From contig JAKFXL010000056.1 of NCBI GenBank assembly GCA_021731365.1, positions 2,289-47,349 on the forward strand: 45,061 nucleotides of DNA, written 5' to 3'. Made by a program: the position numbers and the translations under genes. Source of the DNA: Gammaproteobacteria bacterium (GTDB taxonomy: Bacteria > Pseudomonadota > Gammaproteobacteria > Tenderiales > Tenderiaceae). The notes under the pieces were generated by a model, which searched no databases, was not told the origin of the DNA, and saw nothing but the letters and a program-made list of their open reading frames with translations. Of this stretch, positions 34,451 to 37,505 are shown piece by piece (the first letter of the stretch is position 1; the number at the start of each line of letters is the position of its first letter).

Positions 34451-35398
34451 TTAGCGCAGCATCAGCCCGAGATTAAGCGACAGCGACTCCCAGTTCACCT
34501 CATTCAGGCGTGTACTACCCACATCACCGTCCGAAAAGTAGGTGATATCTACGCCATGATCAGTAGTCCAATTGCCATAGTCGATCCCCACCAGCCACGA
34601 TAGATGCCGACTCAATGGCGACGTGACTTTAAAGGCAACCGTTACACCTTGGCCATCCGCGCTGTGTTCGTAGCTTTTAGGGTGGGCAAAATCAGTCCGC
34701 AGATTCCAGTCGGCCACCGCGTCGTAACGCACCATATGGTATTTCACATCCAGCACCAGCTTTAACCCGCTGGCCAACGACTCATTCACAAAACTCATCC
34801 CGCCCCACGCCCCGCGCCACTCAGTGTCATAACTGGAGTTCAGCCCCGCAAAAGGCCCAAGTGACGGCGGATCGTTATAGGGGTCCATGGTTTGATTACC
34901 GTTAAACATCGTCAGCTCCTGGCGGTGCATCGAATAACCGGCCATGGGCATCAGATATCCCCGATAACCACGGGAAGCCGGGGCTTCCAACCGATAACCT
35001 ACTCCGATACCGGCATCGGCAACACGCCCCCCGGCCCCGTTATTGGAACGGGAAAACTCCGCCTGACGGTTATCCAACAAGTAGTCAGAGTCCTGGTTGG
35101 CACCCGAATCGATATCACCGTATCCCCCGCTCCCAAACAGGTGGAGTGCGCCACTGCTCAGATCCAGCTTGAGCTTGGTCTGCCGCGTCACCAAGTTGTT
35201 CCAGGTCAATTCAGAGAGAATGTTTGGGCTCTGGCCGTTGCCCTGGCCCGCAATGGTCCAGTCCAATCTGTCAACACGATACCCACGCTCCGCCGTCAAC
35301 TCGAACCCCAGCCCGGCATCACCCGGCTCAGCTACCGCCCCCTGACAAACGCCTGTGCCTACCAATAAAATCACCACCCATCGCCTGTTACTCATCAT
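34451..35398 (-). CDS. Outer-membrane beta-barrel protein, omptin/Protochlamydia-OMP-like
   Basis: A 315-residue protein with a signal peptide ending GAVAE. Amphipathic strands follow, including RVDRLDWTIAG, NILSELTWNNL, NQDSDYLLDNRQ and the C-terminal NEVNWESLSLNLGLMLR. The phrases LSELTW, DSDY and NLRTDFAHPKSYEH recall the family of Protochlamydia-type outer-membrane proteins distantly related to omptins. No omptin catalytic residues were assigned, so protease activity should not be assumed. The start is one of two adjacent ATGs (35398, 35395); GGGAAAAG upstream fits the second better. Confidence 0.7.
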   Translation of the reverse strand: MMSNRRWVVILLVGTGVCQGAVAEPGDAGLGFELTAERGYRVDRLDWTIAGQGNGQSPNILSELTWNNLVTRQTKLKLDLSSGALHLFGSGGYGDIDSGANQDSDYLLDNRQAEFSRSNNGAGGRVADAGIGVGYRLEAPASRGYRGYLMPMAGYSMHRQELTMFNGNQTMDPYNDPPSLGPFAGLNSSYDTEWRGAWGGMSFVNESLASGLKLVLDVKYHMVRYDAVADWNLRTDFAHPKSYEHSADGQGVTVAFKVTSPLSRHLSWLVGIDYGNWTTDHGVDITYFSDGDVGSTRLNEVNWESLSLNLGLMLR

Positions 35399-35536
35399 CT
35401 TTTCCCATGTACACCCGCCATTATCGCCCAGACCAAGTCATTCCCGATCTTTTACCCATAAATTCAAAACACTATTCAAGAGAGACTACATTACAGCCGA
35501 TTTACCCTATGTAAAGTGCAAAATAGGGACGCCGCC

Positions 35537-36148
35537 ATGAACCATATCGTCACTGAGAGCCACATCGTCACAGAGCCGACTGCTACCGCCCAATGGCAAC
35601 ACCTGGTGCACGAGGCTGAAACGCGAGCACACCGCACCCTCGGCGAGACTCTGGAGAGCTATCTTGTCTTCACACTCATGCGTTTCACCCAGCGCCCCCA
35701 GCTGCTGGAAGGCATTATGGCCCTGGAATTTCTCAACAGCCTCCATACACAAGGCACCCAGCGCCACAACAATCTACGGGATGTGGGCGACCAGTGCCTG
35801 CTGTTTGCCGGCCTGTTCCCCCAAAATGCCCGCCGTCGCCTGGTCCGGATTGGCTATTTTGTCAGTCTCGGACGCAGCGCCTACCAGCAAATTCACGATA
35901 ATCAACGACATACTACCGCCAAGCTCTACGGTCAGCTAGCCTCAGATTTTATTGCCATGATGGATGTCCTACTGGCCATACGCAGTATCAACCCTGCCAA
36001 TGTCGTACTGTCACCGCTGGAAGCCTTTGAATTATGGGAAGATACCGGCAGTCAGCAGGCCCGCGCCTCGCTGGCACAACGGACAACGGCAGCGCCCATC
36101 GCCAGCCGCCACCCCCTTAAACACGACGCCCGCCCCCGCCACCATTAA
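35537..36148 (+). CDS. Hypothetical cytoplasmic protein
   Basis: A 203-residue helical protein without signal or membrane segment. The central part (ESYLVFTLMRFTQRPQLLEG, DVGDQCLLFAGLFPQNARRR, YFVSLGRSAYQQI) looks like a compact alpha-helical domain that I believe is conserved in other gammaproteobacteria. I cannot name it. The ATG at 35537 is used, with AGGGAC about ten bases upstream; a GTG at 35516 is in frame. It ends at a strong hairpin, so it forms its own transcription unit. Confidence 0.7.
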   Translation: MNHIVTESHIVTEPTATAQWQHLVHEAETRAHRTLGETLESYLVFTLMRFTQRPQLLEGIMALEFLNSLHTQGTQRHNNLRDVGDQCLLFAGLFPQNARRRLVRIGYFVSLGRSAYQQIHDNQRHTTAKLYGQLASDFIAMMDVLLAIRSINPANVVLSPLEAFELWEDTGSQQARASLAQRTTAAPIASRHPLKHDARPRHH

Positions 36149-36222: not shown

Positions 36223-37269
36223 ATGTCAAAACAGATCAAAGCAGTAGCCCTCATCTCTGGCGGCCTCGACTCCATGCTCGCCGTGCGTGCCATGCAGGAC
36301 CAGGGCATCCATATCGAGGGCATCAACTTTTTCACCGGTTTTTGCGTTGAGGGGCATACCCACGCCATCCGCAAGCAGGATCAGAACAAACAGAAACGCA
36401 ACAACGCGCTGTGGGTGGCGGAACAACTTGGCATCAAGCTGCACATTATCGATGTAATCGAAGAGTACAAAGATGTACTCATCAACCCCAAACATGGCTA
36501 CGGTGCCAACATGAACCCCTGCCTCGACTGCAAGACCTTTATGGTACGCAAGGCGATGGAATGGATTAAAGAGAATGAGTTTGACTTCATCATCACCGGT
36601 GAAGTGGTCGGGCAGCGCCCCATGTCACAACGCAAGGATACGATGCAGATAGTGGTCAAGGAGTCTGGCGCGGGCGGGCTATTGGTACGGCCACTCTGCG
36701 CCCAGAACCTGGCCCCGACACTGCCTGAACAGGAGGGGTGGATCGACCGTGAAAAGATGCTCGGTTTTAATGGCCGTTCACGCAAACCGCAGATTGCCCT
36801 GGCCGAAGAGTACGGTTTTACCGACTTTGCCCAACCGGCGGGCGGCTGCTGCTTTTTGACAGATGAGAGCTACTCCAAAAAACTGGTCGACCTCTGGCAG
36901 GTACAAGGCCACAAAGAGTATGAGTTTGACGACATCATGCTGCTAAAAGTGGGGCGGCATATTCGGCCATCGCCCCTCTACAAACTGATTGTCGGGCGTG
37001 AAGAGGGGGAGAACCGCTTCATGGAGGGGTACCGCAACCGCTTTGACTACTTCTTTAACAGTAGCCACCCCGGCCCACTGGTACTGATGGACGGTCAGCT
37101 CAATACCCCAGAAGATATCGAACTGGCCGCCCGGGTTGTCGCCCGTTTTGGTCAGGGACGTGACGCCGAACAGGTGACCGTCACCTACACCCCCTTACAG
37201 GGTGACCCACAATCAATCACCGTCAAACCCTTTACCGCCGACGAGATGCCCAAGGAGTGGTACATATGA
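36223..37269 (+). CDS. PP-loop ATPase, predicted tRNA thiolase (MnmA/ThiI-like) with extra cysteines
   Basis: A 348-residue protein. The N-terminal PP-loop SGGLDS at 12-17 binds ATP to adenylate a substrate carbonyl, as in MnmA, ThiI and TtcA. Conserved-looking cysteines are Cys100 and Cys103 (NPCLDC) and the pair Cys209-Cys210 (PAGGCCFLTD). A CxxC plus a later Cys is the ligand pattern of [4Fe-4S]-dependent thiolases such as TtuA, so a cluster enzyme is plausible; alternatively these are persulfide-relay cysteines. Its stop overlaps the start of a TusA-type sulfur carrier (ATGA), which supports a sulfur-transfer role. The exact nucleoside or other substrate is unknown. No ribosome site is visible before the ATG. 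Confidence 0.8.
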   Translation: MSKQIKAVALISGGLDSMLAVRAMQDQGIHIEGINFFTGFCVEGHTHAIRKQDQNKQKRNNALWVAEQLGIKLHIIDVIEEYKDVLINPKHGYGANMNPCLDCKTFMVRKAMEWIKENEFDFIITGEVVGQRPMSQRKDTMQIVVKESGAGGLLVRPLCAQNLAPTLPEQEGWIDREKMLGFNGRSRKPQIALAEEYGFTDFAQPAGGCCFLTDESYSKKLVDLWQVQGHKEYEFDDIMLLKVGRHIRPSPLYKLIVGREEGENRFMEGYRNRFDYFFNSSHPGPLVLMDGQLNTPEDIELAARVVARFGQGRDAEQVTVTYTPLQGDPQSITVKPFTADEMPKEWYI

Positions 37270-37505
37270 GCACACCACAACAGACCCTGGATGTGCGTGG
37301 CCATCTCTGCCCCATCCCCGTCATTCGTACCCAGAACCATGCAAAAAAACTTGCGGCGGGGGATATACTGGAGGTACTGTGCACGGACCCGGGTGTTACC
37401 AGCGATATTCCAGCATGGTGCCGCATCAATGGCCACAGCGTGATCAGCATAGAGACACGCGACGGTGTCATCGTTGTCACAATTATGATTGGTAACGAGA
37501 GCTAA
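37266..37505 (+). CDS. TusA-family sulfur-carrier protein
   Basis: A 79-residue protein of the TusA/SirA fold. The active-site motif CPIP is at Cys15 (LDVRGHLCPIPVI), followed by the typical TDPGVTSDIPAWC and a C-terminal beta-strand. TusA proteins hold a persulfide on this Cys and pass it to thiolases or to dissimilatory sulfur enzymes. The four-base overlap with the PP-loop gene suggests that this copy donates sulfur to that enzyme, which is inference. I used the ATG at 37266 rather than an upstream in-frame start at 37257. Confidence 0.88.
   Translation: MSTPQQTLDVRGHLCPIPVIRTQNHAKKLAAGDILEVLCTDPGVTSDIPAWCRINGHSVISIETRDGVIVVTIMIGNES

Follow-up and report, generated by a model that had tools for sequence, protein, structure and literature searches.

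The window analyzed here, a 45,061-nucleotide stretch of DNA, contains a pair of overlapping genes encoding a PP-loop protein and a TusA-family sulfur carrier. The ATG of tusA at position 37266 overlaps the TGA stop of the PP-loop gene (37267-37269) as ATGA, which confirms the stop/start overlap claimed in a preliminary description of this DNA. The SGGLDS, Cys100-x2-Cys103 and Cys209-Cys210 motifs reported there are also present, and they are conserved among 76 homologues. The features of the pair are as follows:

36223..37269, + strand: gene for a PP-loop plus NFACT-R_2 protein, 348 aa, predicted tRNA U8 4-thiouridine synthase replacing ThiI
36256..36273, + strand: SGGLDS PP-loop, residues 12-17, the ATP pyrophosphatase motif, invariant among homologues
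36343..36345, + strand: Cys41 in a TGFC..H motif, found in Pseudomonadota members only, candidate persulfide or accessory site
36520..36531, + strand: Cys100-x2-Cys103 (NPCLDC), invariant in intact homologues, in register with MnmA D99/C102
36847..36852, + strand: Cys209-Cys210 (GGCC), with C210 invariant and aligned, in a weakly aligned stretch, with MnmA C199
36952..37263, + strand: NFACT-R_2 RNA-binding domain, residues 244-347 (Pfam)
37266..37505, + strand: TusA-family sulfur carrier, 79 aa, with persulfide Cys15, of a subfamily with W51-C52 (Pfam and alignment)

In Pfam searches, residues 7-133 of the PP-loop protein match tRNA_Me_trans (47 bits) and residues 4-158 match ThiI (42 bits), while no match to a THUMP domain was found. 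The C-terminus matches NFACT-R_2 (PF18297) at 110.6 bits against a cut-off of 26.9, a domain that the preliminary description did not report. The carrier belongs to PF01206 (78.6 bits). The pair lies among glyQS, a gene for an outer-membrane protein, glnA and ntrBC, with no biosynthetic neighbors. The outer-membrane protein gene, which adjoins glyQS at 34451-35398 on the - strand, encodes a Pom family member (PF17251, Protochlamydia outer membrane protein), and directly upstream of the PP-loop gene, at 35516-36148 on the + strand, lies a 210-aa frame that matches nothing in Pfam and has no significant hit in NCBIfam.

Family placement, conserved cysteines, and the TusA partner

The PP-loop protein falls far below the thresholds of the families it most resembles. 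The NCBIfam ThiI profile TIGR00342 yields about 35-36.5 bits against a cut-off of 264.5, with the match confined to PP-loop positions 172-313, and the MnmA profiles TIGR00420 and NF001138 yield 44-48 bits against cut-offs of 237 and 284. The ThiI motif TGE-x-x-GQ..SQ...RPL is retained in the PP-loop protein and is lacking in MnmA. Phylogenetic analysis of PP-loop domains placed the protein outside both the ThiI group (support 99/100) and the MnmA group (100/100), a tree that is read solely as "neither ThiI nor MnmA" because of its long branches. Judged by its sequence, the protein is a third lineage, neither MnmA nor ThiI, in agreement with the earlier proposal of a PP-loop thiolase distinct from both. 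Orthology to MnmA was rejected on the basis of the scores, the tree and a separate mnmA in the same genome.

An AlphaFold model of the PP-loop protein (pLDDT 86, pTM 0.80) has as its best structural match the ThiI-RNA complex 4kr6 (VIA-align Z 16.0, 2.4 A over 164 residues). Other matches include ThiI 2c5s (Z 15.6), YcfA structures (Z about 15), and LarE and MnmA (Z about 13-14). Structures of RqcH, which contains an NFACT-R domain, are among the Foldseek matches of the model.

Homologues occur widely in Gammaproteobacteria, among them Legionella, Francisella, methanotrophs and SUP05. Among 76 distinct homologues, no intact copy lacks C100 or C103, C210 is present in 76/76, and C209 is missing from a single one; since these cysteines are conserved and TusA lies downstream in 62/76 loci, the motifs are real and not chance occurrences. 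Conservation of C100, C103 and C210 extends to relatives of 38-42% identity in Fusobacteriota and Auribacterota, thus spanning three phyla. C41 and C209 are missing from the Auribacterota protein and from both aligned Fusobacteriota proteins. Four PP-loop proteins taken from the phylum's other classes carry TGFC, NPCLDC and GGCC. As judged from the alignment, the cysteines are split into a core of three (C100/C103/C210) and two that are confined to Pseudomonadota (C41/C209), a division that is new here. The RefSeq names of the Fusobacteriota members (L083, L085), "MnmA/TRMU family protein" and "7-cyano-7-deazaguanine synthase," are both unsuitable, and the RefSeq names of relatives would need correcting if the assignment made below is confirmed. 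Two damaged copies were seen: the PP-loop gene of the Francisella noatunensis locus is a broken fragment (it is intact in the other Francisella loci examined), and a 1.4-Mb genome carries a decayed PP-loop/NFACT copy with in-frame stops (G040:C1:280560-280901).

The preliminary description had likened the cysteine layout to that of cluster-dependent thiolases and had set the protein apart from MnmA. The likeness is borne out by the conservation of C100/C103/C210 across phyla, and the protein does form a distinct family, but MnmA has cysteines at matching positions: C103 pairs with its C102 and, in a weakly aligned stretch, C210 with its C199, and at MnmA D99 the protein has a cysteine (C100), as C-type MnmA does. 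Three-cysteine [4Fe-4S] sites are used by NcsA, TtuA and some archaeal U8 thiolases, and the NcsA cluster is held by C142, C145 and C233 (PMC10067955). C100, C103 and C210 rather likely fit a predicted site of this three-cysteine kind with an open iron, and C209 and C41 probably help accept persulfide from TusA.

TusA is encoded directly downstream of the PP-loop gene in 62 of the 76 evaluable loci. All of these linked TusA proteins (62/62) carry the C15-P-x-P persulfide motif, and they also have W51-C52 (C52 in 58/62), which is absent from the other TusA of the window's genome. That second TusA is paired with a DsrE2 protein, and no DsrC/TusE was found in the window's genome, so the free TusA is the one encoded in the window, and MnmA lacks a complete TusBCDE relay. 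The claim of a fixed donor-acceptor pair holds in that TusA is coupled to the enzyme in most Pseudomonadota, but the coupling is not obligate: 14/76 loci, many of them from SUP05/Thioglobus, have no adjacent TusA, and the Fusobacteriota and Auribacterota relatives have no neighboring TusA where the neighborhood is visible. The sulfur donor may differ in SUP05/Thioglobus-type loci without adjacent TusA. In six such loci (L036, L043, L048, L052, L053 and L056), a gene for a ThiS-like beta-grasp sulfur carrier ending in GG is found nearby on the opposite strand, convergent in several.

Distribution relative to ThiI and RudS

The window's genome is a 3.41-Mb draft, 98.8% complete. It encodes a separate D-type MnmA (460 bits, with NPDVLC and STGIC) and no full ThiI, with the window's PP-loop protein as the lone TIGR00342 match. 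The family and genome comparison called for in the preliminary description therefore gives a separate mnmA, no thiI and no TusE/DsrC, with no MnmA or ThiI orthology of the PP-loop protein and with its cysteines conserved in homologues.

The same genome encodes RudS (TudS 123 bits, DUF1722 134 bits), a TudS-DUF1722 protein that acts as an s4U-tRNA desulfidase and removes s4U from tRNA (PMC11417400). RudS lies near a DNA photolyase and a MerR/B12-domain (LitR-like) regulator, with one small gene between RudS and the regulator; the cluster (L089 338-4305, G000:C27:3337-7304) holds the photolyase, the LitR-like regulator, a glutathione-peroxidase-like gene and RudS. The photolyase-LitR-RudS grouping is one described as light-controlled in Pseudomonas (PMC11417400). 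A light-response s4U eraser in a genome without ThiI implies that another s4U writer is needed, and the PP-loop protein is the candidate. At one other locus (L071), the PP-loop gene and a TudS-domain gene are about 0.6 kb apart.

We surveyed a class sample of 232 Gammaproteobacteria-class genomes, at least 90% complete and from more than 150 families, and a phylum sample of 328 genomes. In the class sample the PP-loop/NFACT protein is present in 118/232 genomes (the decayed G040 copy was left out of this count) and full ThiI in 17/232, and none has both. Co-occurrence expected by chance is 8.6 versus 0 observed (Fisher 3e-6, a p-value that, like the one below, is indicative only and overstates independence because the sampled genomes are related). 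The phylum sample gives 29 genomes with the PP-loop/NFACT protein, 102 with ThiI and none with both, and the union of the two samples has 144 PP-loop/NFACT genomes versus 115 ThiI genomes with no overlap. Contamination of the PF18297 counts by RqcH was considered and rejected, as the class-sample frames are mostly about 350 aa and the longer PF18297 frames, those checked by eye, have a PP-loop match about 500 bases upstream.

RudS, counted by DUF1722 in the class sample, was found in 64 genomes, 56 with the PP-loop/NFACT protein and 8 with ThiI. None of the 97 class-sample genomes with neither writer has RudS (Fisher 1e-18 among ThiI-less genomes, likewise only indicative given their relatedness). 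The pattern is the same in the phylum sample, where RudS is found in 91 genomes, 16 with the PP-loop/NFACT protein and 75 with ThiI, and in 0/197 genomes with neither. The rule that RudS needs a writer thus has zero exceptions in either sample, while RudS is absent from 62/118 PP-loop/NFACT genomes of the class sample. DNA photolyase served as a control, covering 182/184 genomes, and is not depleted in genomes with neither writer; among photolyase-positive genomes, RudS is found in 0/45 with neither writer versus 37/43 with a writer. The possibility that lifestyle or genome size produces the RudS pattern as an artefact was rejected, since the photolyase control lacks such a pattern.

Proposed function and relation to known thiolases

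We consider it very likely that the gene pair encodes an s4U synthase that acts on tRNA and substitutes for ThiI, together with a sulfur carrier that serves it. Our confidence is high for s4U as the product and moderate for TusA as the direct sulfur donor. The target would be tRNA position 8 by analogy, a point that the RudS pattern does not settle since co-occurrence with RudS indicates the presence of s4U and not its position. In the proposed reaction, NFACT-R_2 would grip the tRNA in place of the THUMP/NFLD module of ThiI, and the PP-loop domain would use ATP to adenylate the uridine at O4. TusA Cys15 would carry sulfur from a cysteine desulfurase in persulfide form and pass it to the enzyme's C100/C103/C210 site, for which a [4Fe-4S] cluster held by three cysteines and with one iron left open is most likely; this site would then thiolate the activated uridine. 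In its fullest form, the proposal is that of a third class of s4U8-tRNA synthase in which a [4Fe-4S] cluster receives persulfide straight from TusA, gated by C209/C41 and with no part for TusBCDE, and we see the chances of this form as about evenly balanced.

The same product could be made by persulfide chemistry without a cluster, with sulfur passing from TusA-SSH to C209/C210 or C41 and on to the adenylated uridine. This route is likened to that of E. coli ThiI, whose rhodanese domain carries the persulfide (PMC10067955), with TusA in the rhodanese domain's role. TusA is coupled at most loci, C41 and C209 are extra in the TusA-associated branch, and the neighboring C209-C210 could resolve a disulfide. 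However, C100/C103/C210 are the cysteines kept in the Fusobacteriota and Auribacterota relatives without C41/C209 or a visible adjacent TusA, and these core cysteines match the three-cysteine cluster sites of NcsA and TtuA, so we think a cluster-free mechanism somewhat unlikely. Persulfide and cluster mechanisms are likewise disputed for E. coli MnmA (PMC11784392).

It is improbable that the protein is an MnmA paralogue that takes sulfur straight from TusA, bypassing TusBCDE, and serves as a second enzyme for s2U34 or another 2-thiolation, given a full D-type mnmA (460 bits) in the genome, mnmA above cut-off in 51/56 relatives, the presence of NFACT-R_2 where MnmA has its own C-terminal domain, and the ThiI motif TGE..GQ..SQ. 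Moreover, the enzyme with which it is mutually exclusive is ThiI, and the modification targeted by RudS is s4U. These points stand against a PP-loop that scores slightly higher against MnmA than against ThiI (47 versus 42 bits in Pfam), C103/C210 in register with MnmA C102/C199, a genome without TusE, and the entry of sulfur into the E. coli s2U34 pathway through TusA (PMC11784392). The preliminary description had also allowed for a small-molecule substrate, as for a LarE-like or other cofactor enzyme with TusA as donor. The PP-loop domain is structurally similar to LarE (Z about 14), of which a [4Fe-4S] form also exists, but the RNA-binding NFACT-R_2 domain, the absence of biosynthetic neighbors, ThiI exclusion, RudS dependence and a very broad, housekeeping-like distribution (118/232) leave this idea barely credible.

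The s4U synthase reading bears on a problem raised by the 2024 RudS study, which described two distinct groups of RudS bacteria without ThiI, one of them ("Group B") made up of thermophilic sulfate reducers, and which supposed a ThiI of other architecture but could not name the s4U maker in these groups (PMC11417400). The PP-loop/NFACT protein is a plausible answer to this puzzle of RudS without ThiI. About half of the class genomes (118/232) carry the PP-loop/NFACT enzyme where E. coli has ThiI, with loci that include Legionella, Francisella, methanotrophs and SUP05 symbionts. If s4U is made, the tRNA near-UV sensor and the s4U erasure pathway extend to PP-loop/NFACT bacteria, and the writer missing from RudS-positive, ThiI-negative bacteria would be an enzyme class that is widespread in Pseudomonadota and also occurs in other phyla. 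Since TusA appears to act without TusBCDE, the pair is also a natural system in which to study the disputed transfer of sulfur from a persulfide carrier to a cluster-type thiolase.

The route is not undescribed, as had first been suggested: Burroughs and Aravind (2014, RNA Biol 11:360) reportedly predicted an s4U synthesis pathway made up of NFACT-R, a ThiI-like PP-loop and TusA. Their system has the same architecture, TusA partner and proposed product, but it was a prediction. In the literature searched, we found no experimental proof of s4U synthesis by NFACT-R/PP-loop/TusA and no published s4U measurements in Legionella, Francisella or Geobacter. New here are the findings that the protein and ThiI strictly exclude each other and that RudS depends on one of two writers, as well as a concrete candidate for ThiI-less RudS genomes.

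The PP-loop/NFACT protein shares features with several known systems. Like ThiI, it has the PP-loop fold, the TGE..GQ..SQ..RPL motif, a predicted s4U product and an association with RudS and light-response genes; unlike ThiI, it has no THUMP/NFLD or rhodanese domain, has a C-terminal NFACT-R_2, a CxxC in the PP-loop domain and a separate TusA, and never shares a genome with ThiI in our samples. With MnmA, especially the C-type with CxxC + C, it shares the N-terminal PP-loop and NP(D/C)xxC plus a second cysteine in register, but it lacks the MnmA central and C-terminal domains, and its genome has its own mnmA. The CxxC + C arrangement in a PP-loop enzyme is also that of the [4Fe-4S] tRNA thiolases TtuA, NcsA and TtcA, which differ in their RNA-binding part; the zinc-finger modules of TtuA and NcsA are absent here, and the carrier is TusA as opposed to TtuB or Urm1-type proteins for TtuA and Ctu1. 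RqcH/NEMF has a homologous C-terminal NFACT-R (PF18297), but in RqcH it is accompanied by NFACT-N, HhH and coiled coils, and a PP-loop is lacking.

The archaeal U8-tRNA sulfurases (TtuI) are likewise PP-loop U8 thiolases with three conserved cysteines, CxxC + C, whereas the window protein has NFACT-R_2 and TusA. TtuI is reported (He et al. 2022) to hold a [4Fe-4S] cluster with these cysteines and to have a THUMP architecture. Two genomes of one family in the same phylum (L097 and L098, from G247 and G250, family f185) encode a rhodanese-less bacterial ThiI with a CDIC motif near its C-terminus, a CxxC layout that is reported for some archaeal U8 thiolases.
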